The notes beneath the pieces are model-generated. The model was not told where the DNA came from, did no database searches, and saw only the letters and a program-made list of their open reading frames with translations. A program made the position numbers and the translations under genes. Positions 4,782-26,783 of a stretch of 28,380 nucleotides of DNA are shown piece after piece. Numbering within the stretch: the first letter of the stretch is position 1; the number at the start of each line of letters is the position of its first letter. The DNA is from a virus, in the IMG/VR virus record IMGVR_UViG_3300030117_006111, positions 1-28,380 of that record. One strand, given 5' to 3'.

Positions 4782-6680
4782 TTAAGAACCAAGCCCTGCC
4801 ATTTGTCTTTCCGACTCGACAATCCAGTTTTGAATGGAATCATTGAGTTCAACTAAACGTGAGTTGAGAGTATCAAAGTTGTCAGTATCTAAGGCAAGAT
4901 CAACTTGATTGACAATGGTTCTTCCCGCATCACCTGCAAGCTTTGGATCCATTAGGTCAATATCGTTCCTCAACGAAACAGCCTGTTGCTTGTATGCCTC
5001 TCTGTCGCCAGATGTGTACACACTGGAAAGGTTGTTGATTTGATCATCGTATTCATACGGTAGCCAAGAAAGCTCAGACAACGTCTCTTGATTGCCAGCA
5101 TCATCGAGCATGTCTGCAAAATTATTCGCAAACTCAGCAAAGGTTTCAGCATCATCTGGCTCATCGAATGTAAGCTCTCTAAGAGAGAGGCTAAAAATCT
5201 CACCCACAGTGTAGCCTGTCGCGTGTTGAACTTGATCCAATTGAGTTCTTACAAAAGAATTGTCTGCACTGTCTGAGAGGCTCAAAATCCTGTCTCTAAG
5301 GTTTACCAAGTCCTCGGCTGTTTCCGCCCTTTTAGAATCCAAAGCGACAGACCGAAGTTCGTTTTTAAAAAAGTCGAGAACATTACCGCCAAGACGGTTG
5401 GCTTCTTGCTCTCCAAGGCCCCTTCGCCTTGCGGCCACAGCTTCTTGTCTCCACCCATCAAACACCACGCTCTCAACTGCACCAGGCTCTAACTGGCCAG
5501 TAAACGCCTCATCTAAGATTCTACGACCTGCAGCAGGGCTTTGTTGATAGACCTTGGCAATCTCATCAATCAACCTAAGCTCAGATGTTGGTTCTTCTAA
5601 AGAGGAAATGTAAGGGTCGAATGCTTGCCCTGACAAAATAGCAGAACGTGCTGCAGACTCTTGCCTTGAGGCAATCTGCGATCTTCTTAAAGACTTTCGC
5701 AGGCTGTCGATTCTGGTGTCGTAAACACTCACGTCCACCGGCTTGTCCAAACCAGCGCTCAAAAGCATAGCGTCCAAATCAATCGACTGGGCTGCACCAA
5801 CTCCTCCTCGAGTTGCTCGCCTCTGTCGTCGCTCGATGTCTGCGTCAGTCACCGGCCCATAGTTCTGTCGATACTCTGTCATCAGGTTTAGGCGAAGAAT
5901 AGGCTTTGCGCCCACTGCATTTTCAGCAGTAAGGTCTCCAGCAGTAACAAAGCTTCCGTCTCTTAGTTGGAAAACAGGGTTTCTAAAGTCAGGCCGACCA
6001 GTGGCTTGTGCCGCAATCATGTTTGCGCCGACAATATCCCCTCTTTCAATCGCAGCTTGCTGAAGCTGTGCCGCAAGAGCCTCTCTTCTTTGAGCGTCTC
6101 CTCGACCTGTTGTTTTCGAAAGATCCTCAAAAACCGAAACGTACTCTCTGCTTTGATCGGTCCACATGCTTTGAGCACCGGCTGGGTCGTTCAAGTACTT
6201 TTGGGTCCAACCATCAAGAGTAAGCTCAGGGCGAAATTCACTACCAGTTCTTACTTTTTCAATAATCGCATTGGACTGAGGGTCTCGACGCATCGCGGCC
6301 TGATTGGCCCGCTGAATCTTCATAGATTCTGTTTCGATTCCGCCTCTTGCTCGTATTCGAGCCTGTGCAATATCTGCCTGATTATTCTGTAAGTTCCTTG
6401 CGTTTTGACCAAGCTGGCTGAGGTAGTCTTTTACAATCTCTGCCCGATCTGATCGGTCCTGTTCAATCAAGGATGCACGGTTTGCCAAAGCCTCAGTCAA
6501 AGACTCTTGCAGCGTCTTGTGCATGATTGCGCGTGTCCTTGGATCCAGCGCCTGCAGTGCTGCTTTTCTCTTAAACCTGTACTCTTCCTGAGCGTTTGCC
6601 CAGAAAGAAGCGATGAAGCGCTCGGCCAAGCTGACATCAGGAAAAGCAATAGGACTAAAATATGGTGGGACTACGGCCAT
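4782..6680 (-). CDS. Large helical virion/ejection-type protein
   Basis: This is a 632-residue protein starting at ATG 6680, with an AGGT ribosome site 4 bases before it (CGAGGTACATATG). It is rich in Ala, Arg, Asp, Glu and Gln. Long amphipathic helices are likely at residues about 20-130 and 290-480, and the C-terminal third is acidic (runs such as EPDDAETFAEF). No signal peptide, membrane segment or enzyme motif was seen, and no lytic transglycosylase Glu motif was found. It lies between the fibre-like gene and the proline-arm gene and shares an almost direct stop-start junction with the latter. Size, composition and position fit the internal virion proteins of short-tailed phages, but there is no family match I can name. 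Confidence 0.87.
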   Translation of the reverse strand: MAVVPPYFSPIAFPDVSLAERFIASFWANAQEEYRFKRKAALQALDPRTRAIMHKTLQESLTEALANRASLIEQDRSDRAEIVKDYLSQLGQNARNLQNNQADIAQARIRARGGIETESMKIQRANQAAMRRDPQSNAIIEKVRTGSEFRPELTLDGWTQKYLNDPAGAQSMWTDQSREYVSVFEDLSKTTGRGDAQRREALAAQLQQAAIERGDIVGANMIAAQATGRPDFRNPVFQLRDGSFVTAGDLTAENAVGAKPILRLNLMTEYRQNYGPVTDADIERRQRRATRGGVGAAQSIDLDAMLLSAGLDKPVDVSVYDTRIDSLRKSLRRSQIASRQESAARSAILSGQAFDPYISSLEEPTSELRLIDEIAKVYQQSPAAGRRILDEAFTGQLEPGAVESVVFDGWRQEAVAARRRGLGEQEANRLGGNVLDFFKNELRSVALDSKRAETAEDLVNLRDRILSLSDSADNSFVRTQLDQVQHATGYTVGEIFSLSLRELTFDEPDDAETFAEFANNFADMLDDAGNQETLSELSWLPYEYDDQINNLSSVYTSGDREAYKQQAVSLRNDIDLMDPKLAGDAGRTIVNQVDLALDTDNFDTLNSRLVELNDSIQNWIVESERQMAGLGS

Positions 6681-6730
6681 ATGTACCTCGGTTTAGTCTG
6701 ATTCTATAAGACGAGATGGCAAATGTCTCA

Positions 6731-7501
6731 TCAAGATCCTGATATGATGTTCCAGTTGCTACCATTAGATATGATGATCACCGCATCGTATTGAGATGAG
6801 TATGTCTTTGTCGTGGCCCCGTTAATGGTCTGAGTAGCAGCCCCGTCAATCACCATGTCGTTTGCAGCTAAGGTTTTATGAAACCCCAGCATGAGACCCT
6901 GACATGTTGTAGCACTGGGAAGGGTGATGGTGACATTCCCTCCGCCAGTAGAAACATTGTAGAACGTAGCTTGAGTAGATGTGATGGCTGTGTCCGTAGC
7001 AATGACGGTGAAACCAAACTCAACAGTCCGTACCTTCAACGAGTGTAAAAATGCACGCATACCAGGTTGAAGGGAACTGGAAGCCAGTGAAGCAGCGCGT
7101 TCGATTCGAGCAGCAAGCGCCCCTTCAATATCGTCTATCTGTTGTTGAAACCTAAACGAAGCGGCACCGATGGCTCGCTCGGCAAGCTGCCTTGCAGACT
7201 CAATCTTTTTCTCGAGGCTATTGACCTCTTTATTAATTCTAAAAGACAAGCTTCCTGCTGCAAGTTCAGCCAACTGTCTTGCCGAATCGATGTTGTTTTT
7301 TAATGACGCAGAGAGATTGCTTTCTGTAATTGGTTTTTTAGACGCATTGCTTCTAAGCTGCAATGTGTTGAAAGCACCCTGTTGGATGTGTTGCGCCTCA
7401 ATAGAATCTGGAGTCAAAACTCTGGCTTTTACTTGATCGGCCAAGTCATCTAAAGACAGGTCTGAAACTCGTCGGTCTCTTGTGCTTCCAGGCTTTGGCA
7501 C
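6731..7501 (-). CDS. Trimeric coiled-coil tail fibre / needle-like protein
   Basis: This is a 256-residue protein with a GTG start at 7501; the preceding stop is 2 bases away (TGATAGTG). Residues 1-60 are polar, with a 'D..I....I..GAFNTLQLRS' segment that often attaches fibre proteins. Residues 71-99 and 100-128 are a 29-residue tandem repeat (IDSARQLAE / IESARQLAE ... FR) with heptad character, a likely three-stranded coiled coil. From about 160 the chain becomes beta-rich and ends in a pattern common at phage fibre tips: VTITLPSA, then a TQTINGAT-like turn, then SSQYDAVIIISNGSNWNII. This C-terminal domain normally drives trimerisation or closes the fibre. It could be a tail needle, since P22 gp26 is also a trimeric coiled coil, or a short side fibre. 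It is encoded among the ejection proteins. Confidence 0.85.
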   Translation of the reverse strand: MPKPGSTRDRRVSDLSLDDLADQVKARVLTPDSIEAQHIQQGAFNTLQLRSNASKKPITESNLSASLKNNIDSARQLAELAAGSLSFRINKEVNSLEKKIESARQLAERAIGAASFRFQQQIDDIEGALAARIERAASLASSSLQPGMRAFLHSLKVRTVEFGFTVIATDTAITSTQATFYNVSTGGGNVTITLPSATTCQGLMLGFHKTLAANDMVIDGAATQTINGATTKTYSSQYDAVIIISNGSNWNIISGS

Positions 7502-7503
7502 TA

Positions 7504-9930
7504 TCAGCGCCTTTGTGCTTGGTTCATGTATTGAATCGCCTGGTCGAGCGCTTGCTGTTTAAGGGCTGATTGTTCTGGTTTTGAGTAAAGGTTCATAATG
7601 CCAGTCAAAGCAAGACCCATAACCCTGTTGAACTCATTGATGTTTTCATTGGAAAGGCCGCCTCTCAAATAAAGCGAGTAAGCCTCCATAGAGTTTTGAT
7701 AAGACAAAGGATTACCCATATTGTCAAACGCCTTGCCGATATCCTCCATAGGAGGTGCATTCTCCAATGAGCCAAGAGGTCTTGGTGCAGGAGCCGCCTG
7801 AGGAGCAGGAGCAGGCGTAGGAGCAGGCGCTGGTGCCGCAGCCGGTTGAGAAGGCCGTCCTCTATTGAACTCTGCCTGAGCAGCAGCCTGTTGTTCTGCT
7901 GTAGCGTTTGGTAAGATGCCAGCCGCAATAATGTCAGGGTTGATTGGGGCTTCTCCACCTGTAGCCTCAATGCCTGCAGCAACTTGTTGTTCAGTTGCCC
8001 CTGGAAGCATGGCCGCAACCACCGTATCCACCACACTGTTGTCATCAGCAGGAGCAGCAGGAGCAGCAGGAGCAGCAGCGAGGACGTTTTGACCGGGGGT
8101 GAGGCCAATATCCAACCCTTGTTGCGCTGGCGCTTCAGGCTGGCGTAAAGCCGGATCTTGATCCATAGGGGGTAGGGGTGGGCCACCAGTGCGAGTGGGC
8201 CTCATAGCGTCTCGCTGCTCGTCAGTCATTCTTGTCATTGTCGGACGGGCTGGAGGTTGCGCCTGCTGTTGAGAAAGCTGTTGAAACTTAGTAAGCGCTT
8301 GCTGTCGGATCGAAGGATCCAGTTGCTGCGCACTATAAGATCGAATGCCGGGAGAAAAGTCTTCTTGAGGATTTCCAACATGAAAGCGGTTGGTCTCTAT
8401 ATTGTAGTACACAACTTGATCACCTAATACCACCTTTTGAAACTCTCCTCGAGGCCCAACAAAAGACCCATCTTTTGCGCTTGAGTAGTGGTCTGGTTGA
8501 CGGGCTGCTAACTCTTGCCCCGTAGCCGCCCCAAGAAACCCGGGTTGAGTCGCGGGCACCACAGGAACCTGACCTTGTGCTCGTTCTAATTGCCGTTCTC
8601 TTCTCAAAGCGTCAGCCTGCTCTGCGTTGAGGCCCCGGTCAATAATTTCTTGCTCAGTAGCGTCATCACCACGAGCTACTTCTCGTTTTTCTACTACAGC
8701 TTGAGGTGTGAACTCGCCTTCGGGAGGTCCGTCAGGGGTAGCGTCACCTTGAGCTTGACGGACTGAGTCAATAACGGCTTGCCCCTCTGCGCTAGCTGCT
8801 TGTCCCTGATCCGTTTGAGGCGCTTGATACGCACCAATCTCATTTGTAATGGCCTGACCAACACTGTTGGTTGCGGCATAGCTTTTACCAATTGTGTCCT
8901 GCTCGTCGGCAGGAGCACCAATAATTGTGACTGTTCCATCAGGGTCTTGACGATATCGGTATCCTCCAGCGCCATCAACTTCTCGAGGCTGTGGAGCAGC
9001 AGGCGCAGCAGGGGTCACAGCAGCAGGAGCAGCAGCACCCTCAGCAGCAGGCGCAGCAGCACCCTCAGCAGGCGCAGCAGGAGCAGCAGGAGCAGCAGCA
9101 CCTTCAGCGGGACGATCAGCACGAGCACCAAAGGCAGACTGCAATTCGTTAATCAGCTTGTTTCGTTCTTCATCGGAAACTCCGCCAAATCGATCAAGTA
9201 GACTTGATACCTCCGCGTCAGACAAATCAGGAAAAGCGTTCTTGAGTTCCTGAGCAATCTTAGGGAGGTCCTTTGTTCCTTCATATGCTTTTGCAGCGCC
9301 AAGAAAAGAAGCAAGGCCAGCGCCAGCCTTAGCAAGACTTCCAATAAGTTTTTCTTTAGATTGTGCGAAGAACTGTGTAATCGAATCGTACTTTTTAAGG
9401 TCTTCAGCAACCTTTCGTCGTCGGGCTTCTTCTGCAAGCCCCAAAGCTTTAACTTCTGCTTCTCTCCCGGCTTGTTCTGCAGCACTTTGAATAGCTTTTG
9501 TTTGTTTGAGATTCCCTCCACCTTTGGCCGCCAAAGCTCCCAAGCCAGCCCGAGATGCCGCCGTTTCTGCACCGCCAATGACCCCTTTGGATCGCCGGAG
9601 TGTTTCTTTGAATTCTTCCGCCCCTAATGTTCCTGAGCGTTGTTGCGCTTTGATTCGCGCCCTTTCACTGGCCGCTTCTTTTCTCGTGTCAGACAGAGCG
9701 TATGCTCCACCTTTGATGAGAAGATCGATGCCGCCCAAAATAGCAGCTTTTTTAGCAACGTCTTTTTTCTTTTCAGCCGCCTGTTGCTTCATTAGAGCGG
9801 CAACGTTTGGATCTCTCGAGGCAAGGATCTGGCTTGTTAAAGAGTCGGTTTCAAGGTAGTCGGTGTCATACTCGTCACCAAGCGAAAACTCATCGTCACT
9901 ATTAATACCTGTTCTACGTCTACGAGACAT
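7504..9930 (-). CDS. Large virion/ejection-type protein with Ala/Pro linkers
   Basis: This is an 808-residue protein from ATG 9930, preceded by AGGATGA; it starts 3 bases after the previous stop. It opens with a basic patch (MSRRRRTG) and an acidic stretch. Two small hydrophobic Gly/Ala helices follow (about 60-80, AILGGIDLLIKGGAY; about 195-220, LAKAGAGLASFLGAAKA), with long charged helices between them. From about residue 272 it is modular: an Ala/Pro linker (272-312), a small domain with YRYRQDPDGTVTIIG, Gln/Ala-rich helices, and two more Ala/Pro linkers near 615-628 and 693-713. The last 80 residues look folded and helical. The linker-bead plan and hydrophobic helices suit a protein that must pass a narrow channel during DNA ejection. 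No family name can be given. Confidence 0.87.
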   Translation of the reverse strand: MSRRRRTGINSDDEFSLGDEYDTDYLETDSLTSQILASRDPNVAALMKQQAAEKKKDVAKKAAILGGIDLLIKGGAYALSDTRKEAASERARIKAQQRSGTLGAEEFKETLRRSKGVIGGAETAASRAGLGALAAKGGGNLKQTKAIQSAAEQAGREAEVKALGLAEEARRRKVAEDLKKYDSITQFFAQSKEKLIGSLAKAGAGLASFLGAAKAYEGTKDLPKIAQELKNAFPDLSDAEVSSLLDRFGGVSDEERNKLINELQSAFGARADRPAEGAAAPAAPAAPAEGAAAPAAEGAAAPAAVTPAAPAAPQPREVDGAGGYRYRQDPDGTVTIIGAPADEQDTIGKSYAATNSVGQAITNEIGAYQAPQTDQGQAASAEGQAVIDSVRQAQGDATPDGPPEGEFTPQAVVEKREVARGDDATEQEIIDRGLNAEQADALRRERQLERAQGQVPVVPATQPGFLGAATGQELAARQPDHYSSAKDGSFVGPRGEFQKVVLGDQVVYYNIETNRFHVGNPQEDFSPGIRSYSAQQLDPSIRQQALTKFQQLSQQQAQPPARPTMTRMTDEQRDAMRPTRTGGPPLPPMDQDPALRQPEAPAQQGLDIGLTPGQNVLAAAPAAPAAPADDNSVVDTVVAAMLPGATEQQVAAGIEATGGEAPINPDIIAAGILPNATAEQQAAAQAEFNRGRPSQPAAAPAPAPTPAPAPQAAPAPRPLGSLENAPPMEDIGKAFDNMGNPLSYQNSMEAYSLYLRGGLSNENINEFNRVMGLALTGIMNLYSKPEQSALKQQALDQAIQYMNQAQRR
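8995..9115. repeat. Ala/Pro-coding triplet repeat tract
   Basis: The plus strand shows repeated gcagcagga, gcagcacc and cagcaggcg units, which are Ala, Ala-Pro and Glu-Gly-Ala codons of the minus-strand gene. The product is a repetitive linker built from AEGAAAPAA-type units. Similar, shorter tracts occur at about 8045-8085 and 7790-7850 in the same gene. They are coding low-complexity repeats, not an array with spacers. Confidence 0.75.
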
Positions 9931-9933
9931 GAC

Positions 9934-10311
9934 TCATCCTACACCAAAAGTTTCTGCTTGAAATTTATCGAATTGAGTTCCAGTGTTCGCCTGAGTAGTA
10001 GCACCACCCATACTGGCCGCAAGAAGAGCATCATCTTTCTTAGATTGTTGCGAAAGCGCGGTTCTTTGTTTAGCTCTTTTCTGAGCCTGCTTGTCTGCCT
10101 TCATAGCTTCTTTGTTGGCTTTTGCTAAATCTTTGGCTTGTTGTTCTTGAAAGCTTTGAACCCCGCCGGTTGCTGCCGCTGTAAGAGCAAAACCAACACC
10201 AAGCAAAGGATTGACAGCACCAAGAGTCATGGCTGTTGTTAGGGTGCTTGAAGAAAGGCCGGTTTCTAATGCACCAACAGCCGCCGCCTTTTGTTGTTTT
10301 TCTGTAGCCAT
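9934..10311 (-). CDS. Small ejection-type virion protein with hydrophobic helix
   Basis: This is a 125-residue protein from ATG 10311 with a GAGGTAGAT ribosome site just upstream. Residues about 10-50 form an Ala/Gly/Leu-rich hydrophobic stretch (LTTAMTLGAVNPLLGVGFALTAAATGG). A Lys/Gln/Ala-rich coiled-coil-like helix (about 52-95) and a polar tail follow. The layout of small size, N-terminal hydrophobic helix, basic helix, and a place between the tail genes and the giant ejection proteins matches the T7 gp14 type of internal protein, which goes into the outer membrane during infection. That similarity is in architecture only; I do not see sequence identity. Confidence 0.85.
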   Translation of the reverse strand: MATEKQQKAAAVGALETGLSSSTLTTAMTLGAVNPLLGVGFALTAAATGGVQSFQEQQAKDLAKANKEAMKADKQAQKRAKQRTALSQQSKKDDALLAASMGGATTQANTGTQFDKFQAETFGVG

Positions 10312-10323
10312 ATCTACCTCTTA

Positions 10324-11178
10324 CTAAAGCGCATGGACATCAATTACCATACTGCGGCCACCGACCATAATGTGTTTCCAACCAGGGCAGTTATATGTGG
10401 GGGTTTGTGAATTACCTCCCTCGGTCATAGCAAAGCCCTCATTTGAGTTCACCTCTCGTGTACCTGATTTTCCGTTTCCTCTCGGAGAGTCAGCTAGTGA
10501 ACGGACCAAGCACATCACAACCACATGGTTTATTCCGGCTGATAAGGTTGGGTGACAGATGAAAGAAAACTGTTTGCGAGAGTGCATGTGGTTGAACGAG
10601 GTAGAAGCGTACAAGTATCGCGCAGTTGTTGGCTCTATTTCTCCATTCACAAACAATGCAAACTCAGCGCACCAAGCTTCTTCTAACTTTCCCGGTGTAT
10701 TTCCATCATCATCTTCAACACCGGACCCCCATGGAGAAAGAGAGCCCCCCATTTCATAAGCGTAAAAACTACACAGAACAGTGCTCCTAGTGCTGTTTTC
10801 TTGAACGTTAAACGTTGCTCCCATGTTTCGAACAGGAACCCAGCCTGATGTTTGATTTCTTTCGGTTGCAAAATCCGATGTTTTAGATCCTGCATGTGGG
10901 TGATGAAAAGACAGGTTTTCAACACCAAAAGGAGTATTTCTATAATAAACCTCAGAGCTTACAAACTCAGTTCTGTTTGACCCAGAAGCATAGAAGTCAG
11001 GCTTGTATATGTGCCGGGTCTTAACAACCGGCTCATTTCCTTTTGATGAAGTTACAAAGTCGCTATTAGTGCGAATCCCGCTGTTTAGATAAACCTCGTT
11101 TTCATCATACAAATCTTCAAAGAAGCTAATAACTACTTCATCGCCATCACTTGGTTTTGTAGGTGGATTGATAGGCAC
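10324..11178 (-). CDS. Beta-rich virion protein, third of three tandem paralogues
   Basis: This is a 284-residue protein with a GTG start at 11178 (GAGGTGAAAAGTG; the ribosome site overlaps the previous stop). It is mostly short beta-strands with many Gly, Asn, Ser and aromatic residues. Two strands line up with those of the first gene of the trio: STVLCSFYAYEMGG (132-145) with SLLIVEFSAHFEWMG, and WCAEFALFVNGEI (169-181) with ACIKFRVLCNGDV. The spacing is similar, so a shared jelly-roll-like fold is likely. It sits right after the tail nozzle gene set and may be a tail-side or head-surface appendage. The exact role is unknown. The C-terminal half contains a GNGKSGT sequence, but the context does not look like a P-loop ATPase. 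Confidence 0.85.
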   Translation of the reverse strand: MPINPPTKPSDGDEVVISFFEDLYDENEVYLNSGIRTNSDFVTSSKGNEPVVKTRHIYKPDFYASGSNRTEFVSSEVYYRNTPFGVENLSFHHPHAGSKTSDFATERNQTSGWVPVRNMGATFNVQENSTRSTVLCSFYAYEMGGSLSPWGSGVEDDDGNTPGKLEEAWCAEFALFVNGEIEPTTARYLYASTSFNHMHSRKQFSFICHPTLSAGINHVVVMCLVRSLADSPRGNGKSGTREVNSNEGFAMTEGGNSQTPTYNCPGWKHIMVGGRSMVIDVHAL

Positions 11179-11181
11179 TTT

Positions 11182-12093
11182 TCACCTCACAAAATTACGA
11201 GCGGACAACAGGAAATTACCGATGGTAACCTTGCCATCCGTGGGCTTATCATCCCAGTAATCAATCTTAAGTTGAAGTCCAAAATACAACTGAGTGGTAA
11301 ACTGTGTTGTATAGGAGTAACCAGTAGTTCCAACATCTCTTTTACTAGCGAAGAGATGAGAAGCACAGATGTTCTGCCTCAACCTTGCATAGCCAGCAAA
11401 GATATTGGACAAAGCTGTGTAGTCGGAGGTTCTTTCACCCCAGAAACGATTTTTGCTTTTTTTAACGCTTCTACTACCGTTGATATTGAATCCTAAGCTT
11501 TGAGATATTGGCGCGTGGAAACCAAAAGCTCCCATCTGCACTCTACGGGTTGTTGCATGCATAGGAATCCATGCAGAAGAAGCTGTAGGCGTAGATGCAG
11601 ACAAAATATAAGCAAGCCTTGTGCTTACCCTTGTTTTTTTACCCCAGTTGTTTGAGCCATTTCCACCAGCAGGAAACAAACCGCTAGTAGGTGCAGCAAA
11701 AACATCCAAGTGGTATCTGACCAGCATCATGTGATGATCGTATTCTCCGCTTGTAATATCAGGGCTGTAAGTAAATGGGCCGATAATTTGGTCTTGAGTG
11801 CTGCTTGAAAGCAAGTGCCAAGAGCCATTGTGTGGGCTGTTGGTTGTTTTTACAAAGCCGTATGGTGAAGAAGATTTACTAGACCCTCGATGGGCCGTGC
11901 TGGTTATGTCTCCTTTAGTAAACATTCGACGATCAAGGCCCTCGTCTCGAATGTTGTCAGAATCAACACCTTGTCTGTTTGCGGTGTTGCCTGTCGGGCT
12001 TGTTGCCGTGCTCCAAGAGTCAACGGTGTCGTTCACATCTGCGACATCCAAGGTCTCGCCAGGAGTGATGCCTTTTATAATAACTCTGGACAT
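11182..12093 (-). CDS. Beta-rich virion protein, second of three tandem paralogues
   Basis: This is a 303-residue protein from ATG 12093, directly abutting the previous stop (TGA-ATG). The N-terminus has GVDSDNIRDEGLDRR (42-56), the kind of 'D.DNI...G...R' segment often found at the base of phage fibre-like and structural proteins. A similar DRDNFREQDF lies in the gene before it. The middle contains a strand HHMMLVRYHLDVFA that corresponds in place and pattern to the paired strand of the two neighbours. The rest is Ser/Thr/Gly/aromatic-rich beta sequence. It is taken as a structural protein of the tail or capsid surface from context and composition. Confidence 0.85.
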   Translation of the reverse strand: MSRVIIKGITPGETLDVADVNDTVDSWSTATSPTGNTANRQGVDSDNIRDEGLDRRMFTKGDITSTAHRGSSKSSSPYGFVKTTNSPHNGSWHLLSSSTQDQIIGPFTYSPDITSGEYDHHMMLVRYHLDVFAAPTSGLFPAGGNGSNNWGKKTRVSTRLAYILSASTPTASSAWIPMHATTRRVQMGAFGFHAPISQSLGFNINGSRSVKKSKNRFWGERTSDYTALSNIFAGYARLRQNICASHLFASKRDVGTTGYSYTTQFTTQLYFGLQLKIDYWDDKPTDGKVTIGNFLLSARNFVR

Positions 12094-12963
12094 TCAACGC
12101 TTCCTTTGGTGAACAATAAGCTCTCGCTCAAACATTGTACACGGTTGCTGAACTCCCGTTTTCTCAATGTCTTCGCCAGGAACACGATTGTCTACATAAG
12201 CCATTTTGTATTGAACCTGAACGTCTGTTTCTCCAGCTAGCACAGGAATAGCCCCTACAAGGTAAACGGAGTTTCTTCTTACATGATTCGCAAACCATCC
12301 AGATTCACACACAACATCACCGTTGCACAACACTCGAAACTTGATGCAAGCAAACATTCTTCGAGGTCCAATATTGTCGTCAGCAATGCCATCATCGGGA
12401 ACATACACATCCCAAAGGTGCGCTTCTCCGCCAGATTTATCAGACCAAGATGGTTCGTAAATACCTTCCCATTCACCAGACCCGGTCGAAACTTTTTTCT
12501 CTGTACCAAGGTTGTTGCATAGGTCCAGGCCCATCCACTCAAAGTGAGCAGAAAACTCAACAATCAACAGACTGTCGTCTGTAAGATTCAAATTAAGTGC
12601 TGGAGTTGTGTTGAAACTTGAATAGGCTGATGGCCTTCCAGTGCCTTTGGTTGACCATCCGATGCTTTCCATGTCTCCACCCAAATCTAAAAGCATGATT
12701 TTTCCGTAACCATTGCCGTTGTGAGTGGTTGCTACGTCAGCGAATACTGCATTGAATGCATTGTGCTCAACAAGAGGAAGAGAGCTAAACCCACCAGCGG
12801 TCGGGCTGTTGTACACTCCATTTGAAAAGTCTTGTTCTCGAAAGTTGTCTCGGTCTAAGTAGCCATTGTACTCCGACACAAACTCTTTTTGATTCTCTAA
12901 AAAGTCTTCAGGGATAAGAGCATCGCCTGACTCGTGGTATTCCTGTCTATACTTCCAAGCCAT
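12094..12963 (-). CDS. Beta-rich virion protein, first of three tandem paralogues
   Basis: This is a 289-residue protein. I place the start at ATG 12963 (MAWKYRQEYH), which has AGGAGG 8 bases upstream and lies one base after the nozzle stop (TGA-T-ATG). The frame is open further to 13002, but that would overlap the nozzle gene. The N-terminus has EYNGYLDRDNFREQDF (31-46), resembling the segment in the next gene. Strands SLLIVEFSAHFEWMG (131-145) and ACIKFRVLCNGDV (206-218) match strands in the third gene of the trio. The end is a long beta region (YLVGAIPVLAG ... VQVQYKMAYV). It is probably a virion surface or tail-attached protein; there is no named family. Confidence 0.85.
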   Translation of the reverse strand: MAWKYRQEYHESGDALIPEDFLENQKEFVSEYNGYLDRDNFREQDFSNGVYNSPTAGGFSSLPLVEHNAFNAVFADVATTHNGNGYGKIMLLDLGGDMESIGWSTKGTGRPSAYSSFNTTPALNLNLTDDSLLIVEFSAHFEWMGLDLCNNLGTEKKVSTGSGEWEGIYEPSWSDKSGGEAHLWDVYVPDDGIADDNIGPRRMFACIKFRVLCNGDVVCESGWFANHVRRNSVYLVGAIPVLAGETDVQVQYKMAYVDNRVPGEDIEKTGVQQPCTMFERELIVHQRKR

Positions 12964-12964
12964 A

Positions 12965-15394
12965 TCAAGTCCCTCCTCTTGGAGATTTTGCAGAAATACC
13001 AAGGGCTTCGTTAAGCGGCTTGATATTCCTTTGCTCCCCGAGCTTTACTTCAATGTCATAACCAACGATTTGAATCTGTCTGCTTGCAGGAGAAAAAGTA
13101 AACTGCATTTCTCGAGCAGGACCAACAGAGGCAGTGCTTATATCAAACCGGACAGGCACGGGTCGAGCGTTAGCCCAAACGCCAGCATCAGGGTGAGTTG
13201 GACCCCAAACAGCAGGAATAGAAGGAGGAAACGTATACTTCCTTTCTACATCATTCATTGGACCGTAAATAAACTGCCTGTCATTTGGATCTTGTTGATC
13301 GGCGCTTTGCGCTGTTGAGCGAACCTGTCTGGTTGATCGATTGATTCTGTAGTTCAACTCTAAGTCATTGTTGCCATATGCCACTGCATAAACGATGACA
13401 TGTGCGGGCTGAACGGATTGATAAACACTACCGAAATCAATCGACGACGTTTCGTAAAGAGGCTCAACCTTCCGAATACTGGAGTTAGAGTAGCCGCCTG
13501 ACCGCTGACCGTACCAGTGTCCCTTAATCTTTGCGCCTCTACTGTAGACGTAGATTCCTTGTGCCGTGGTTCCTAAGTTTGTTTCACTTTCATTACCAGA
13601 AGCATTGCTTCCGTAAAACAAGTAGTTCCTATGATCTTTAGTTTCGACCATGCAGCCTATTGGGTAGTTTTCTCTGAAACTCCAAGCACCAATCTCATAG
13701 TGGTAGCAAAGAACTAAATCATTCTTATCAGACCCAATCGTTGGAACCGCCAACCAGTATTCTCTATCTGTGTGATAAATCTCACCAAAAGCATTCAACA
13801 ACGCTGCTGGATTGATTTTTTTCATAAGGTCTGGGATTGGTGTTGAAATGTTCACAATCCCTGTGATGGTGCCAGTGTTTTCCAAAGCACCTTTGAGCAA
13901 GTACACTCCGTCTTGAGAAAGAAAGGCCAAGCCCAAGCCAGGAATCTCTTTGATTGAGTTGGGCGAAGAACAACCAGTATCTAAAGTCAAAGTGACTGAA
14001 GCAAACCCATTAGCGGGATCGCCTTTGATTAGGTAGATGCCTTTCTGTTTAAAAACAACCAATGCGTTCCTGGTTGCGTACATTCCAGTAATCGGCCCTT
14101 CATTCGCATCTCCAATAAAGAACACATTGTCTGGTGGGAAGACCTCTGGAAAAAGCGGAGCACTATAAGCCACTTCACTTCCAGAATGACCAGCAACGAA
14201 CATAGTGTTTTTGAATGATGCTAAATACTTCACGCCAGACGGAACAGGACCAAAATCCTCATCATAAAGACGATTACCAAGAAAAGCGTCTGGCCGCCCA
14301 TCCTCAAACACAGTTGTGAAGTTGTCTTGGATTTCCTCTAAAAAATAAAAATTGTCCCCTCTTGAAACGCTAGCGAGTTCATTGGAACTATTGACTAAAT
14401 TTTGAGTCCTATAGACTCTGCGAGCAACTGTTCCTTTCGGGCCTGTTGGAATTGAAACCCTAATAAAGGTTCTGCCATCCTCATTAGACAATGAATAATC
14501 ATCGTTCGAGCCTTCTTCATAAGAATAAAGGTTGTTGCCGTTATCAAACGTACACAGCCCGCTTGAAATAGATGGCTTTGATTCTTGTCCTCTTTCATTT
14601 ACAAACGTGACTTTGTATCGATACCCATTCTTTCTTTTTCCCGAATCTAAACCCTGTGTTTCCGCATTTTTTATACCAAATGTCGTATTTGCGACTGTGT
14701 CTGGGTCTGAGTTTTGACTGCCAACGCCACAACTCACAAGGTCATGAAAGACTTTTGATACGTTGTATTTTCCATTTGCAAAAAACATAGACGCATGCAG
14801 CCCGTCACTGCCCATACCAACAATGCCTGATGCAGTAGGTGGAGCAGGTGAGGTCCCAAACCCAGCGTTTTCTACTCGAGTTCCATTGAAAACAATCACC
14901 CTGTCGTAGCCGTTGGCAAAATAAATATTGCCACCCCAAGTCTGAGACTGGGTTCTTTGGTGCGGTGTAGTAATAATTTGTCGTCCAGTAACAACGCTTC
15001 CGTCAAGATCTACCAAAGGCGTCCAAGGATCAGCCGAAGAAGACCGCTCTACTTTAGAGCCATTGAAGAAGTTTATCGTCCCGTTTTCGTCTTCAAACAA
15101 CAACCACTGACGCGCACCGTTATGCTGACAGAACCAGTGAATACTGTAGATTTCACCCTGACCTTCCCAGGGGTTGCTTCGGGCACCTCGAGCAGACGCA
15201 TTGTAGTAGTTTTCTTCACGGTTACGACTATCGGGTTTTTGCAGCGTAGCTATCTCAATGGACCCGCCAGCATCTTTCCAACCGTCGTGGTAGTCCCAAG
15301 TCATGTCTCGAATCCTGGCTGCAGTACCTGCTCCAGGGGACCACCTTTCCTCTATGCCTCTTAGTTTGTTGACCTGTAGAGTTGTGGTTTTCAT
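12965..15394 (-). CDS. Tail nozzle / tail tubular B-like protein
   Basis: This is an 809-residue protein from ATG 15394, 2 bases after the adaptor stop (TGATAATG). It has the pattern of short-tail nozzle proteins (T7 gp12 / P22 gp10 type). The N-terminus is KLRGIEERWSP, followed by blade-like repeats such as NGTINFFNGSKV, GNIYFANGYDRVIVFNGT, LAFLSQDGVYLLKG and NALVVFKQKGIYLIKG, consistent with a beta-propeller. An FN3-like insertion spans residues about 256-375 (YRYKVTFVNERGQESKPS ... RRVYRT). The C-terminus carries a beta domain ending in IQIVGYDIEVKLG, typical for this group. It would bind the adaptor ring and form the distal tail channel. Gene order adaptor-nozzle supports the call. Confidence 0.88.
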   Translation of the reverse strand: MKTTTLQVNKLRGIEERWSPGAGTAARIRDMTWDYHDGWKDAGGSIEIATLQKPDSRNREENYYNASARGARSNPWEGQGEIYSIHWFCQHNGARQWLLFEDENGTINFFNGSKVERSSSADPWTPLVDLDGSVVTGRQIITTPHQRTQSQTWGGNIYFANGYDRVIVFNGTRVENAGFGTSPAPPTASGIVGMGSDGLHASMFFANGKYNVSKVFHDLVSCGVGSQNSDPDTVANTTFGIKNAETQGLDSGKRKNGYRYKVTFVNERGQESKPSISSGLCTFDNGNNLYSYEEGSNDDYSLSNEDGRTFIRVSIPTGPKGTVARRVYRTQNLVNSSNELASVSRGDNFYFLEEIQDNFTTVFEDGRPDAFLGNRLYDEDFGPVPSGVKYLASFKNTMFVAGHSGSEVAYSAPLFPEVFPPDNVFFIGDANEGPITGMYATRNALVVFKQKGIYLIKGDPANGFASVTLTLDTGCSSPNSIKEIPGLGLAFLSQDGVYLLKGALENTGTITGIVNISTPIPDLMKKINPAALLNAFGEIYHTDREYWLAVPTIGSDKNDLVLCYHYEIGAWSFRENYPIGCMVETKDHRNYLFYGSNASGNESETNLGTTAQGIYVYSRGAKIKGHWYGQRSGGYSNSSIRKVEPLYETSSIDFGSVYQSVQPAHVIVYAVAYGNNDLELNYRINRSTRQVRSTAQSADQQDPNDRQFIYGPMNDVERKYTFPPSIPAVWGPTHPDAGVWANARPVPVRFDISTASVGPAREMQFTFSPASRQIQIVGYDIEVKLGEQRNIKPLNEALGISAKSPRGGT

Positions 15395-15396
15395 TA

Positions 15397-16704
15397 TCAG
15401 ACCTTCGTTGGGATTCCGTATCTCTCGACCTGCATAAGATCCTTATCGAACCCTCTGCGTCTAAACATTCTATTCGAACGACTCAAATACTTCTGCTTCA
15501 TTCTTTTTAGAAGTTCTTCGGCCCTTCTTCCGTACAACTGTCCCTGAGTTGTCATTCCATGCTGAAGGCAAATGTCTTCGAGGGGCTTGTACACTAAATA
15601 GTGATGGTACTGAACCGGCCAAGCAGGAACGTCGTAGTCAGCAGATAGTCGCCTTGGGCGCTGCGCATATCGTATCTCAAGCTCAAGGTCCGATTGTGCT
15701 GTCCACCAAAGCCGAACAAACTGTCGGGGGCCAGCATCAAACAGGTTGGTCACCTGGTCATAATCATATGTATTGGTCCCTGATGTTGCAGCATTCGGCA
15801 GGATTGTCTCATCATCATACAACGTTGTAGCTGCATCTAAGACGGCAATCAGAATCCATCTGGTTCCGTTGGTCTTGTCTCTTCGGTACACATACTTTCG
15901 TTTACCAGAGTCATTGAACGTGACGCCGTCGCTTGACCACCTAAGGTCTTCTATTTCTTCCAACCGAATAGATCTGTCTGTGCCAGACGTGGTTGCTTCA
16001 GAAACAAGAGACGGGGCACTTTCAATACCTTCAGATACAATCGTATAGCAATACTGGTAAGTAGTGTTTCTCTTCAAAGAGTTTGTAGGACCCGATCTGA
16101 CCGTCAGCTTAATAGTTTGATCTGGTGGCCTTTGAAACTCATTTGATTCCTCTTCAATCATTACGATTGGATCACCAGTCTGGTCGATGTCTAAGAACTG
16201 CTCCTCCTCTTTTCGCATGTTGACAAACATCAACCTGCCACGATCATCTGTTCTGGACATGACGCCCAGGACTTCTACGCAATCCTTAGGCAGAGCGTAT
16301 CGGTCGAACCTGACTGACCAGTTCGCACTACCAGCAGCAGAAGTTACGGCAGAAGCTAAATAAAGGGTTGTTGTGGTGGCTACACGAACGATTGGAACCT
16401 CTGTGCCGTCTGGAGCAACAAACGTCTGGCCTTCCATCTCAGGGACAAAGACTCCTGTTCCAGCAGAAAGCGTTACCAGTCTAAGATTGCCCGCCGCAAT
16501 AGTAACTTGTGACGTAGCTGAACCGCTGACGGTGGCCTTAATGTTGAAGTCTCGCTTCTCCTGCATGAAAAGCCATTGATACTGACTGCTGCATTGCAGG
16601 TAGTGTCGATTGACTACCCGCTCCACCTGAGACTTGTAGGCTGCAAGACTTGGATTGTAATCGAGAGCAGAGTTGATTTCCTCTCGCAGTTCTTTCAGAT
16701 TCAT
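15397..16704 (-). CDS. Head-tail adaptor / tail tubular A-like protein
   Basis: This is a 435-residue protein from ATG 16704, with a GTGAGG ribosome site that directly follows the T-run of the upstream terminator. The N-terminal helices (LKELREEINSALDY ... VNRHYLQCSSQYQWLF) and the C-terminal helical part (PVQYHHYLVYKPLEDICLQHG, LKRMKQKYLSRSNRM) fit the adaptor ring that docks under the portal (T7 gp11 / P22 gp4 type). Two beta insertions lie between them. Residues about 50-135 are a strand-rich Ala/Thr region. Residues about 198-304 are FN3-like (TTYQYCYTIVSEGIESAPS, then KRKYVYRRDKT). The family core is recognisable from layout and the next gene (nozzle) agrees. The FN3-like insertion makes it longer than a minimal adaptor. 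Confidence 0.83.
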   Translation of the reverse strand: MNLKELREEINSALDYNPSLAAYKSQVERVVNRHYLQCSSQYQWLFMQEKRDFNIKATVSGSATSQVTIAAGNLRLVTLSAGTGVFVPEMEGQTFVAPDGTEVPIVRVATTTTLYLASAVTSAAGSANWSVRFDRYALPKDCVEVLGVMSRTDDRGRLMFVNMRKEEEQFLDIDQTGDPIVMIEEESNEFQRPPDQTIKLTVRSGPTNSLKRNTTYQYCYTIVSEGIESAPSLVSEATTSGTDRSIRLEEIEDLRWSSDGVTFNDSGKRKYVYRRDKTNGTRWILIAVLDAATTLYDDETILPNAATSGTNTYDYDQVTNLFDAGPRQFVRLWWTAQSDLELEIRYAQRPRRLSADYDVPAWPVQYHHYLVYKPLEDICLQHGMTTQGQLYGRRAEELLKRMKQKYLSRSNRMFRRRGFDKDLMQVERYGIPTKV

Positions 16705-22805: not shown

Positions 22806-24374
22806 TTACCGATTTTGGTTTTGAATAGCTGCGAAAGGATTTCGGTGAGCTTTGTAGCGACGTTTGGGCAAGAACTCCGCAGGGAGCTTTGCTGTAGGTA
22901 ACGTTCTTCTATTCCACTCAGCCAGCATTAACGCATCAGCATGATCGTCATGATAACCATCTTGCCCCTCAATCTTGCCAGATTGCTCACGGATGTGCAT
23001 CAACTCTTGGACTGTAGCCTCGTCGTTAAGCGTTAGCGCATCGCCATTCACAACCTGTCGAAGGTGCGCGTATCCTTGTTCCTTGCTTCCGCGAGTCGTT
23101 GTCCAGTAGTCGTGGTTTCTTTTTCTTTTTTTGCCAGGAGGTGCCGGTTGCTTCCATAAGGGCAAACCCCACTTGTTGAACTCTCGAATAATCACAGGAC
23201 CAGCACCACCAGGGTTAGACTCAATCAGGGTTCTTGCCTTGTTGTAATGATTCGCCAACTCAGCAGCTTTGGTTGCAAACAGCATCTCCCCACCCTTGTT
23301 GGTTGAGAAGGTAGCCACCTGCCTGCCGTCTTCAGAAATCACTTGAGCAACAGCATAGTCACCACCGTTGCACCAAGACGGGTCGATACCAATCGAATAC
23401 GACATCCCTGGATACGGTCGCTCATAAACCCTTAGCTCGCCTGTAGCAGGCTTTAGGCTGGCGAGAACTTCGTTTAGATAGTCTGGGTCAAACCAAGCTC
23501 CATCAAAGACTGCAAAGCCATCCTCAAGCGTAAGAGGGTACTCACGGCGGAACTGGTTGACTCCAATACCGTTGACACCATGAACCTTGTCGTGACGCCA
23601 ATACAACTGGGGCAGGGTTAGCCCGTGCAATTGCGCCAACTCGTATTCTTCCTGGTCGGGCTCCCACCCACGAGGCGGCTGCTTTTGGTAAGCCCTATGG
23701 TCAGACCACTTGAAGAACGTAAACCGCACGCTCTTGTCGCCTGCCCGAACTGCCTCTTGGGCAGACAGAACCTTTTGGTGGAACAAGTTTCCTGGCCCGT
23801 TTGCCGTGGAAAGGATGATTGTCTTGCGGTGGGGGCCATCGTGCATCGTAGATGTAATCGATGCCCACATCTCAGCAGCGTTTGGCCAGTAGGCAAGCTC
23901 ATCTGCATGAAGGCGCTGATAAGTCCATGCACGACCACCACTCTTACCACCTGCAGTCATGCATCGGAAACCCGCGTGGGTGTCTCCAAAGATTAGCTCT
24001 TTGCGAGAAGACCGCAGCGTTTCCCTTTGCAAAGCACTTGGCAGCGTCCTGTGAAAATACTGAAGCTTGTCAAAGATAGAGTCTGTAGCGTCGTAAGTAT
24101 GCGCAACTACTAGAGTTCTTACTGGGTCTTTGGTCCAGTACGAGTAGTCAAAGTTGTAGGCACAAGAGACTGTGGTATCGCCAATCTGCCGTGGCTTGTA
24201 ATGAACAATTGTCGTTGCATCAGACATGAAGTCCATCAACGCCAGCTTCTGCTCGGCAAAGGGAGAATCGAATCTTCGGTCGATTCCTTTCTCGTCAACA
24301 AGCCGGAGTCGAGAAATAAACTCTCTCGGATCCCCAGCTACGTTTCTGAGTTTCTCTTCGAAGTCTGCAGACAC
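22806..24374 (-). CDS. Terminase large subunit (TerL)
   Basis: This is a 522-residue protein with a GTG start at 24374 overlapping the preceding stop by one base (TAGTG). The ATPase part has a Walker A region at 60-68 (KPRQIGDTT), where Lys precedes the loop and the usual C-terminal Gly-Lys is Gly-Asp. Walker B is at 155-162 (LHADELAYW, Asp158-Glu159) and the coupling motif is TIILSTANG (185-193). The nuclease part has the RNase H-like acidic triad: GIDPSW (Asp331), LIESNPGG (Glu385) and HDDHADAL (Asp477 or Asp480). A basic loop APPGKKRKRNHD lies between the last two. It drives DNA packaging and cuts concatemers. Length and motif order are normal for the family. Confidence 0.96.
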   Translation of the reverse strand: MSADFEEKLRNVAGDPREFISRLRLVDEKGIDRRFDSPFAEQKLALMDFMSDATTIVHYKPRQIGDTTVSCAYNFDYSYWTKDPVRTLVVAHTYDATDSIFDKLQYFHRTLPSALQRETLRSSRKELIFGDTHAGFRCMTAGGKSGGRAWTYQRLHADELAYWPNAAEMWASITSTMHDGPHRKTIILSTANGPGNLFHQKVLSAQEAVRAGDKSVRFTFFKWSDHRAYQKQPPRGWEPDQEEYELAQLHGLTLPQLYWRHDKVHGVNGIGVNQFRREYPLTLEDGFAVFDGAWFDPDYLNEVLASLKPATGELRVYERPYPGMSYSIGIDPSWCNGGDYAVAQVISEDGRQVATFSTNKGGEMLFATKAAELANHYNKARTLIESNPGGAGPVIIREFNKWGLPLWKQPAPPGKKRKRNHDYWTTTRGSKEQGYAHLRQVVNGDALTLNDEATVQELMHIREQSGKIEGQDGYHDDHADALMLAEWNRRTLPTAKLPAEFLPKRRYKAHRNPFAAIQNQNR

Positions 24375-24883
24375 TATGCCTCAGCAGAAGGCAAACGCCA
24401 GTTGTTGCCAGACGACTCGCCACCAAGGTATTCGCGCAGTTCTCGAAGCTCTTCGGAGCTTTGTGCCTGCTCGGTCTTCTGAAACCGAACTTTAGCGTAT
24501 CGGTCATAGGCCCAAGACTCACCCTCTTGCATGCCTTTGTGTACGCCTTCCCACCAAACACTGTCCAAAAGACAAAGTTCCTGCTCAGAAACTGGTTCAA
24601 CTTCTGGAAAGTCTTCGAAGAACCAACCAAGAAACTTGCTGTTCTTACACCATCGCTTGAACTCAGAGGGCGTAACAGCATGATCCTTTAGGTGGACTGA
24701 TTCGCTTTTTCCAGAAGCACGATACCAATCTTTCTTGAAAACCTGACCACCATCAGCCAATCGACGAGCCAACCGCCGAAAAGCCGTTTGACGCTCCGTG
24801 GCTTTGTATTCAAGCAACTCAGGATTGATCCATTGAACCAACTCACCGTTGTTATTGTCTGAACCATCATTGCTATTTGGCAT
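24374..24883 (-). CDS. Candidate small terminase subunit
   Basis: This is a 169-residue protein starting at ATG 24883 (MPNSNDGSDNNN), with GGAG 5 bases upstream; longer forms to 24931 lack a ribosome site. It is translationally coupled to TerL. After an Asn-rich polar tail there is an Arg-rich helix (ERQTAFRRLARRLADGG), a possible helix-turn-helix-like segment (TPSEFKRWCKNSKFLGWF) and a C-terminal helical region (WWEGVHKGMQEGESWAYDRYAKVR) that could form the oligomer core. A DNA-binding N-terminus and helical C-terminus directly before TerL is the normal situation for TerS, which recognises phage DNA. No direct sequence match is claimed, so the role rests on position and layout. Confidence 0.6.
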   Translation of the reverse strand: MPNSNDGSDNNNGELVQWINPELLEYKATERQTAFRRLARRLADGGQVFKKDWYRASGKSESVHLKDHAVTPSEFKRWCKNSKFLGWFFEDFPEVEPVSEQELCLLDSVWWEGVHKGMQEGESWAYDRYAKVRFQKTEQAQSSEELRELREYLGGESSGNNWRLPSAEA

Positions 24884-24904
24884 TTTGTCTCCACTTGCTA
24901 TCAT
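24877..24904 (+). promoter_or_regulatory. Sigma70-like promoter for the plus-strand gene
   Basis: A -35 box TTGGCA (24877-24882) is separated by 16 bases from the -10 box TATCAT (24899-24904). The -10 box has an extended TGC directly in front. Both boxes match consensus at 5 of 6 positions. The predicted start site falls at about 24911-24912, the A of the ATG, so the message would be leaderless. The -35 box overlaps the start codon of the opposing gene. Confidence 0.5.
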
Positions 24905-24911
24905 ACTAAGC

Positions 24912-25103
24912 ATGGAAAAAGATAAGAACAAGTCCGAAGAAGAACAGCCTTGGATTCATGAGAGCGAAATTGTAAAGAGAATCCGAGAGCTTGGTCTTGA
25001 ATCTGATTTTGTAAAAACAGAAGACAGAACAGAAAGAATGGTAGCGCTGACGGAAGTTTTCTCTAAGCATTACAAGCACTTACATGATCGAGGAAAAAAC
25101 TAA
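24912..25103 (+). CDS. Small plus-strand protein, probably leaderless
   Basis: This is a 63-residue protein and the only plausible plus-strand gene in the window. It starts at ATG 24912 and fills almost exactly the gap between two minus-strand genes. Its stop overlaps the stop of the 25100 gene tail to tail (CTAA), and its start lies 28 bases from the opposing start at 24883. It is hydrophilic and helical: an acidic/Lys-rich N-terminus (MEKDKNKSEEEQPW), then ESEIVKRIRELGLESDF and MVALTEVFSKHYKHLH. No ribosome site is seen, but a good promoter just upstream would place the transcript start at the ATG. The function is unknown. It could be a regulator or an antisense-type control of the late operon. 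Confidence 0.68.
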   Translation: MEKDKNKSEEEQPWIHESEIVKRIRELGLESDFVKTEDRTERMVALTEVFSKHYKHLHDRGKN

Positions 25104-25327
25104 AGGTCCTCTGCAAGTTTCTTTGTAATCTTAGATTGCCCTGCGTGAAGCTTAGAAGCATTGGCCAATTGCTTACTGACCTTTTTTAGCTTTTGCTTTG
25201 GGCCTTTTTTTTTATCCTCAAGCATCTGCATGGCGACAGCGACAGCTTGCTTTTGCCCCATCCCCTCTTCTTTGAGCTTCTTTATCTTCTTAGCGATAAA
25301 CTCGCGGTCTTTTGGGGTTTGAGCCAT
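25100..25327 (-). CDS. Small basic protein, uncharacterised
   Basis: This is a 75-residue protein from ATG 25327, overlapping the previous stop by one base (TAATG). It is very Lys-rich. The first half is EFIAKKIKKLKEEGMGQKQAVAVAMQML, a pattern (KI..L..EG..Q.QAVA.A) seen in small proteins of many phages and integrated elements. The rest is Lys/Leu/Gln helices (KQKLKKVSKQLANASKLH). It could bind DNA or another virion protein. No function is known to me for the pattern. Confidence 0.8.
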   Translation of the reverse strand: MAQTPKDREFIAKKIKKLKEEGMGQKQAVAVAMQMLEDKKKGPKQKLKKVSKQLANASKLHAGQSKITKKLAEDL

Positions 25328-25911
25328 TACCGTGCCCGCCTGCTGCGAATACTCTGCATTTCCCGGTCCATCTCATCTAAACGGCGCTGTAGTTCGTTCG
25401 CAGCAGATACAGTCTCATCTGTTTGACGACCGCGTTGAAGAATTTCAAGATCTTGGGCTCTGATGGTTTCACGCATCATGTCCATGTTTCTTTTGTATTC
25501 AGCCTCCAACTGACGCAAGCGGGTAGCGTCATTAGCGCGATTTGGAGGAGTGCCCTTAATTTGCATTGGCTCCATTCGCTGTGCTGGCGCTCTTACTGTC
25601 CTTGGCAAGGGTGCCGTAAAATCTGATGGGTTCCTATCATACTCAAAACGACCCAAGTCACTAAGCGGAGCGGGATCGCCAGGACGGAAAGGAATGCTGC
25701 CCGATGGCATAGCGCCAGTAGACAAGGCTTCTCCAACACTCTCAAGCGACTCTGCTGGGGGAAACTCACCCTCAGGCATACCACGACGCTCCATTCTCTC
25801 TGCGAGAGCACGCTCTCGAGCGTCATCAAAGTCCTGCATCATAAGACGGTCATCGTCAGAAGGGCTATTCACAACCTCTTGGTTGCGCATAAACTTTTCG
25901 CCTTTAGCCAT
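25327..25911 (-). CDS. Uncharacterised protein with C-terminal coiled coil
   Basis: This is a 194-residue protein from ATG 25911, overlapping the preceding stop by one base (TAATG). Residues 1-60 are charged and helical (DDARERALAERMERR), 60-125 are Pro/Gly-rich and extended, and 125-194 form a heptad-like coiled coil (LRQLEAEYKRNMDMM ... LQRRLDEMDREMQSI) ending in a basic RSRRAR tail. It is probably part of the same virion-protein cluster as the two genes before it. No domain was recognised. Confidence 0.82.
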   Translation of the reverse strand: MAKGEKFMRNQEVVNSPSDDDRLMMQDFDDARERALAERMERRGMPEGEFPPAESLESVGEALSTGAMPSGSIPFRPGDPAPLSDLGRFEYDRNPSDFTAPLPRTVRAPAQRMEPMQIKGTPPNRANDATRLRQLEAEYKRNMDMMRETIRAQDLEILQRGRQTDETVSAANELQRRLDEMDREMQSIRSRRAR

Positions 25912-26783
25912 TATTCTTCTCCATTATCAAAAGTATCCATAAGTCCTAGTATTTCAGAAAGTTGACGCATTGATTGTGACGCTTGAGATGCTCGAGCAAC
26001 CACGCCATCTTGTTCAAAGTCATCTGCAGTGCCTTCACCAGACTCAAAAAGCTCCACTTCGCCGTCTTCATATCGACCCTCAATCTTACTGGGGTCGTCC
26101 GTAGAGTACATTTCGTACATAGTGCCGTCTTGAAGCTTTCTTGTTCCTAAAAATGTGCCGGGAGGAAACTTATCTAAATCAATCTCGTCTCCTCGAGCAA
26201 ACTCATCGAAGTCTTCTTCGCTGTAATCAAAAGATTCTTGAGGAACAAGCATATCAGACATCATCCCGAAACCAGCAGCGCCCCCAGCAAGACCAGCCGA
26301 AATCCTCCTGCCAATCTCTGCGGCACGCTCCAAAGCCTCACGTTTTTCACGGGTTTCACCAAAGCCTCGACCACCAGACTGAGGACCAGTGCCAAACGTC
26401 ACAGGAGCACCGCGTCGAGCTAAGAACTCAACCTCAACACCACCCCTTGGGCTAGGTCGAATCTCGCTTACCTTGTATTCCTCATACCCAGGAAAAGAGT
26501 CCCCAACTTCAAGCCTGTAGGTCTCACCGCCTACATCCTCAAAGATTGCACCCGCATCAAACACGGTGCCGTCATCGTCTTGAAGCAACATGCCGCCCTT
26601 GAACTGCAGCTTCTTTCGCATGTCGCGCTCAATTTGATCGGCCATCCCTGAAGATAACTCTTCGTCGATATCGAAGAACTCTTTTGCCTCGCGATCCAAA
26701 AACTCTTTGTTTTCCTCGCTGATTGGACTCTCGTCCGCTCTGCCTGGAATCGACTGGCCCGGTAAGGGATAAGAATCTGCCAT
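25911..26783 (-). CDS. Uncharacterised acidic protein with Gly-rich hydrophobic helix
   Basis: This is a 290-residue protein from ATG 26783, one base after the previous stop. It has two small beta-rich parts: about 55-130 (GGMLLQDDDGTVFDAG ... YRLEVGDSFPGYEEYKV), and about 205-245, which has a similar strand pattern (FLGTRKLQDGTMYEMYSTDD). A Gly/Ala-rich hydrophobic helix lies between them (ISAGLAGGAAGFGMMSDML, about 160-180). The sequence is strongly acidic overall. The build resembles other ejection-type proteins in the window, and a similar virion role is inferred. No catalytic residues were seen. Confidence 0.83.
   Translation of the reverse strand: MADSYPLPGQSIPGRADESPISEENKEFLDREAKEFFDIDEELSSGMADQIERDMRKKLQFKGGMLLQDDDGTVFDAGAIFEDVGGETYRLEVGDSFPGYEEYKVSEIRPSPRGGVEVEFLARRGAPVTFGTGPQSGGRGFGETREKREALERAAEIGRRISAGLAGGAAGFGMMSDMLVPQESFDYSEEDFDEFARGDEIDLDKFPPGTFLGTRKLQDGTMYEMYSTDDPSKIEGRYEDGEVELFESGEGTADDFEQDGVVARASQASQSMRQLSEILGLMDTFDNGEE

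Follow-up and report, generated by a model that had tools for sequence, protein, structure and literature searches.

Conserved leaderless genes are, to our knowledge, few among phages, and they have mostly been found singly. Phage λ CI is a helix-turn-helix (HTH) repressor of about 237 aa. Its messenger RNA (mRNA), when made from PRM, begins at the AUG and is divergent from a key operon, and the same can be said of PY54 cI/cro (PMC3017554, PMC4488713). The leaderless acuR operon of Rhodobacter sphaeroides has no Shine–Dalgarno sequence, and its 5′ end has been mapped exactly at the AUG (PMC3017554). By these examples (λ cI, PY54 cI/cro, and acuR), leaderless mRNAs would often encode regulators. 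In a second type of system, the bidirectional promoters of Escherichia coli described by Warman, Grainger, and co-workers, a symmetric −10 element serves two divergent transcripts, 18 bp being the commonest distance between their starts, and the two orientations of the polymerase are mutually exclusive; −10 elements are by nature symmetric (PMC12825309).

Here, we describe a phage locus that resembles both types. It lies in record IMGVR_UViG_3300030117_006111, of which a stretch of 28,380 nt was analysed (hereafter, the window); its minus strand carries late genes of a tailed phage. As in the E. coli promoters, a pseudo-symmetric −10 element is probably shared and the predicted starts have the same 18-bp spacing; the differences are that the phage is uncultured, that one product would be leaderless, and that the promoter is a prediction from the sequence. 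As in λ and PY54, a phage mRNA is predicted to begin at its AUG and to diverge from a key operon, but the protein is small (63 aa), has no detected DNA-binding domain, and is partnered with the late terminase operon. The lack of a Shine–Dalgarno sequence recalls acuR, though the start is here predicted rather than mapped, and AcuR is a TetR-family regulator of a bacterium, encoded at the head of its own operon. The genes and sites concerned are as follows:

24912–25103, plus strand: 63-aa small-protein gene, opposite the late operon; a conserved new family, 56–79 aa in relatives
25100–25103, both strands: CTAA, the overlapping stops of the convergent genes (4-nt overlap, seen in the sequence)
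25100–25327, minus strand: convergent 75-aa gene, in place of the gene for single-strand binding protein (SSB) of relatives; weak match to phrog_2423
24888–24893, minus strand: TGGAGA, Shine–Dalgarno sequence of the divergent gene (seen in the sequence)
24374–24883, minus strand: putative small terminase subunit, 169 aa; it immediately precedes TerL in almost all of the relatives examined
22806–24374, minus strand: large terminase subunit (TerL); phrog_2 (E 2e-32), PF17289
17325–18377, minus strand: major head protein, among the late genes of the window

The small gene is genuine, and we think it fairly probable that the pseudo-symmetric −10 beside it is a bidirectional sigma70-type promoter, giving a leaderless mRNA one way and the terminase operon the other. 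The heptamer TATCATA (24899–24905), between the divergent genes, would act in both directions. Leftward, read as TATGAT, it would drive the putative small-terminase/TerL operon, whose transcript would have a short leader bearing the Shine–Dalgarno sequence; rightward, as part of TTGGCA-16-TGC-TATCAT, it would start a leaderless mRNA at the small-gene ATG or directly beside it. With starts 18 bp apart, there would be room for only one polymerase at a time. The small protein might then tune late or packaging expression, and this is the step of which we are least sure.

The earlier note on this DNA had singled out a lone plus-strand gene, and this holds: every other credible gene of the window is on the minus strand, and the frame at 24912–25103 runs from an ATG at 24912 through 63 codons to a TAA that ends at 25103, with the product MEKDKNKSEEEQPWIHESEIVKRIRELGLESDFVKTEDRTERMVALTEVFSKHYKHLHDRGKN. 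The ATG of the divergent gene, at 24883, is 28 nt away. One should keep in mind that the length of a frame is no proof of a gene, because the window holds 20 plus-strand ATG frames of at least 63 aa. Two other candidates in this region were rejected: a 57-aa frame on the minus strand of this gap, which has a GTG start and for which the opposite-strand frames of the 56-aa relatives carry 2 to 4.6 stops each, and an upstream TTG start at 24849, which lies inside the neighbouring gene, the homology starting at the ATG.

Relatives were collected by TerL scans of IMG/VR (53 loci), and an alignment-based scan added more distant ones; loci carry the prefix L here. Profile/HMM searches found the small gene at 35 loci including the window, that is, at 34 others of approximately 53 terminase relatives. 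The homologues always lie on the strand opposite TerL, just upstream of and divergent from the putative small-terminase gene, and the gene is single-copy in each of the 11 matching records (20 records were searched whole). Scanning with the sequence of the family itself returned only contigs already known through TerL. Bacterial and archaeal genome contigs gave no match to the family, and isolate phages, searched at the DNA and protein level, yielded no homologue of the small gene or of the putative TerS; the TerL matches among isolate phages are all below 60% identity. The median omega of the small gene is 0.12, a sign of purifying selection, and pooled pN/pS is lowest in its frame of all six; the alignment of all members is too divergent for a pattern scan. 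Judged by this comparison, the frame is a real, conserved gene.

Relatives with a broken frame beside intact neighbours had been named beforehand as evidence against the gene. None of the 35 members has a broken frame, but in a further clade, where an HNH gene in the orientation of the operon occupies that place, the small gene is missing (from G004 and G005, the two whole contigs searched). Because the small- and large-terminase genes are intact there, the small gene is dispensable in that clade and can be lost.

We infer that the divergent neighbour is a small terminase subunit (TerS) from its position and its helical model, which weakly matches the phage protein 2ao9 (Z 4.9). In the Shine–Dalgarno clade described below and in L013, L031, L034, and L045, the convergent neighbour is, where it could be identified, SSB (SSB calls were tested with PF00436 in L013 and L040 and otherwise judged by sequence). 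The 4-nt overlap of stops recurs in most relatives, though the convergent gene there is usually SSB. In L103–L108, the SSB gene itself takes the divergent slot beside the putative TerS. With these arrangements in view, one might regard the small protein as an accessory packaging, head, or host-takeover protein with an incidental orientation; it is always beside the terminase genes, it is missing where an HNH gene stands at that place, and SSB can fill its slot, as in L103–L108. Such a role leaves unexplained why the opposite orientation and the tight promoter spacing were kept over deep divergence, and we give it an appreciable chance that falls short of even.

Another proposal of the earlier note was an antisense insulator between two halves of the operon. 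On this view, what counts is the transcript and not the protein: it would work against read-through arriving from upstream genes and so keep the halves of the late region apart. Around the small gene, neither strand of the window has a recognizable intrinsic terminator, which is compatible with antisense read-through, and the 4-nt overlap would make any read-through antisense to the convergent gene. However, it is the protein sequence that is under purifying selection, and the small gene persists while the convergent gene changes (SSB, 75 aa, or 1068 aa). We consider an insulator very unlikely.

Several other observations were made in these genomes. In most relatives, an SSB gene adjoins that of the putative small terminase (L013:3738–4154, L040:3834–4229, L105:2934–3350); the branch of the window has the 75-aa gene in its stead. 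HNH_3 endonuclease genes were found upstream of the putative small terminase at L002:4624–4920 and L007:3305–4162, and in L007 the HNH domain and the small gene coexist. Upstream of the terminase, L002:3–4658 is a frame of more than 1,550 aa with a zinc-protease-like HEILHH motif, and it may encode an injected polyvalent protein. L060, the closest relative, has after its tail genes a single ORF of 3,491 aa with a LysM domain (6107–16582), which is 3,434 aa in another relative; the truncated 901-aa frame at the left edge of the window is at the corresponding place. The idea that this giant ORF encodes an N4-type virion RNA polymerase was rejected, its match to phrog_2206 being weak. ARAGORN reported a tRNA-Lys (ctt) at 26364–26461, which is probably a false hit, lying within a 290-aa frame (25911–26783) on the same strand.

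How translation starts can be assessed from the energy of the Shine–Dalgarno duplex. The median for genes of the window is −6.0 kcal/mol, with 95% of them reaching −3 or better; the small gene is at +2.2 kcal/mol, in agreement with the earlier statement that it has no ribosome site. Values are +0.6 to +1.2 in L004, L007, L006, L013, L046, and L047, which together with the window make up the seven members without a Shine–Dalgarno sequence. Across all members, the energies are bimodal, with two main classes. Most of one 20-row clade, which is a single clade on the TerL tree (100/100), has a clear Shine–Dalgarno sequence, while L031, L034, and L045 have weak, intermediate ones, and L034 and L045 fit neither class. 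The seven members without the sequence occupy three places on the TerL tree; because they are related, no more than three of them can be counted as independent, and all may descend from one leaderless ancestor.

The promoter elements between the divergent ATGs are as follows:

24877–24882, plus strand: −35-like TTGGCA, overlapping the start of the divergent gene
24896–24904, plus strand: extended −10, TGC (24896–24898) and TATCAT (24899–24904); TGnTAYNAT is kept in the window, L004, and L007
24905–24911, plus strand: ACTAAGC between the −10 and the ATG, invariant in the window, L004, and L007
24900–24905, minus strand: TATGAT, −10-like towards the putative terminase operon; it uses the base pairs of the plus-strand −10 with an offset of one

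The boxes that had been reported before (TTGGCA, TGC, TATCAT, and the ATG) are all in place, with a 16-nt spacer between TTGGCA and TATCAT, and transcription of the plus strand would be predicted to start at about 24911–24912. With E. coli matrices, from which the sigma factor of the host may differ, this is the top sigma70-like site on both strands of the 28 kb (13.1; next, 11.0), and it exceeds local shuffles at p 0.003; a plain consensus scan of 2 kb, with 3 sites found and 1.8 expected, is not significant by itself. In seven of the seven members without a Shine–Dalgarno sequence, the −10 ends 6–7 nt before the ATG and belongs to the best sigma70-like site of each member. As background, a best site at 6–7 nt that scores at least 6.6 precedes 0.4% of random ATGs and, among ATGs that come first in long ORFs, 1.6%.

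The window, L004, and L007 share TGnTAYNATACTAAGC-ATG; of the 16 nt that precede the ATG, 13 are identical (binomial 1e-13 against random columns). The earlier note had looked to conservation of the ATG and the two boxes: with the starts as chosen, every one of the 35 members begins with ATG, and the −10 is kept in the window, L004, and L007, but the −35 is poorly conserved (TGGGCA in L004 and AGGACA in L007). With poor −35 elements, the sites of L004, L007, and L006 reach only p about 0.2 each. L013, L046, and L047 have TTGAC(T/C)-17-TACCAT-6-ATG with variable spacer sequence. When the upstream regions from 14 dissimilar members were searched for motifs without supervision, the result was a TAYCAY-like motif (log-likelihood 41, compared with at most 24 in shuffles), to which the matching element of L007 is TACTAT. 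The same motif ends 18–19 nt before the ATG in the Shine–Dalgarno clade, where the small-gene promoter does not beat shuffles. The claim that the promoter is placed for an RNA start at the ATG therefore gains from a layout common to seven members, with the motif further off in relatives that have a Shine–Dalgarno sequence, and a leaderless mRNA in the branch of the window is well supported by comparison. A search with PF00940 (T7-type RNA polymerase) gave no match, but the controls were likewise without a match.

One point absent from the earlier note is that TATCATA (24899–24905) is pseudo-symmetric and reads TATGAT on the opposite strand. In the terminase direction, the shared base pairs read TATGAT in the window, TATGGT in L004, and TATAGT in L007, and the predicted starts at 24911 (plus) and 24893 (minus) would go with −10 elements that overlap on both strands. 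The clade without the small gene also keeps extended −10 elements of the TGnTATGAT type in the terminase direction at the same place, for example, TGCTATGAT (L005) and TGATATTAT (L008), 17–20 nt before the same terminase-side ATG. Because the element is kept there too, the −10 is probably common to both directions, and part of the motif's conservation may therefore stem from the terminase-direction promoter alone. What speaks against use in both directions is that, in several members, promoters of the terminase direction are also near chance.

Taken further, the conserved −10 could belong to the terminase operon only, with the small gene transcribed by chance symmetry, or from inside the neighbour, and translated from a longer RNA without a Shine–Dalgarno sequence. 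The gene-less relatives just described and the natural symmetry of −10 elements (PMC12825309) are what one would expect in that case, whereas several features belong to the small-gene direction separately. The plus-direction TG is present in the window, L004, L007, and L006 and, in our reading, is not seen in this direction in the gene-less clade; in the L013 clade, a −35 oriented towards the small gene is conserved, and the motif is 6 nt from the small-gene ATG as compared with 36 nt from the terminase-side ATG. The site of the window is, in addition, the strongest of the 28 kb. A −10 serving only the terminase operon is thus unlikely in our estimation, and we return to the bidirectional promoter.

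As for the protein, searches of Pfam, PHROG, and PDB gave no relative (PHROG and Pfam matches were at chance level), and fold searches with the model gave nothing above background. The AlphaFold2 model has two helices at low confidence (mean pLDDT 73), and the protein is probably helical. By analogy with λ cI, a regulatory role is plausible. A specific form of this role would be a cI-like repressor that binds the shared promoter and holds the terminase operon back until late. Leaderless mRNAs for λ cI and PY54 cI/cro (PMC3017554, PMC4488713), the divergent overlapping promoters, and the strict linkage to the terminase operon would suit such a repressor, but the searches detected neither an HTH nor a ribbon-helix-helix domain nor any further DNA-binding family or fold that is known, the model shows two helices only, the charge ranges from −7.5 to +12.6 among members, which is odd for a DNA binder, and no operator was identified. 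We consider this repressor improbable. It is doubtful, too, that the protein is a late-expression regulator of a new class, in which the orientation of a −10 shared with the terminase operon and weak translation of a leaderless mRNA would set the timing of the packaging genes, one clade having later gained a leader and a ribosome site.

Under the bidirectional reading, the locus is a small, self-contained candidate for a promoter that works both ways where a packaging operon begins. A single phage lineage would hold two forms of the same gene, one leaderless, its promoter directly adjoining the ATG, and the other leadered with a Shine–Dalgarno sequence and the same −10-like motif approximately 12 nt further away. 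This two-form series would offer a natural test of how leaderless and led translation interchange.
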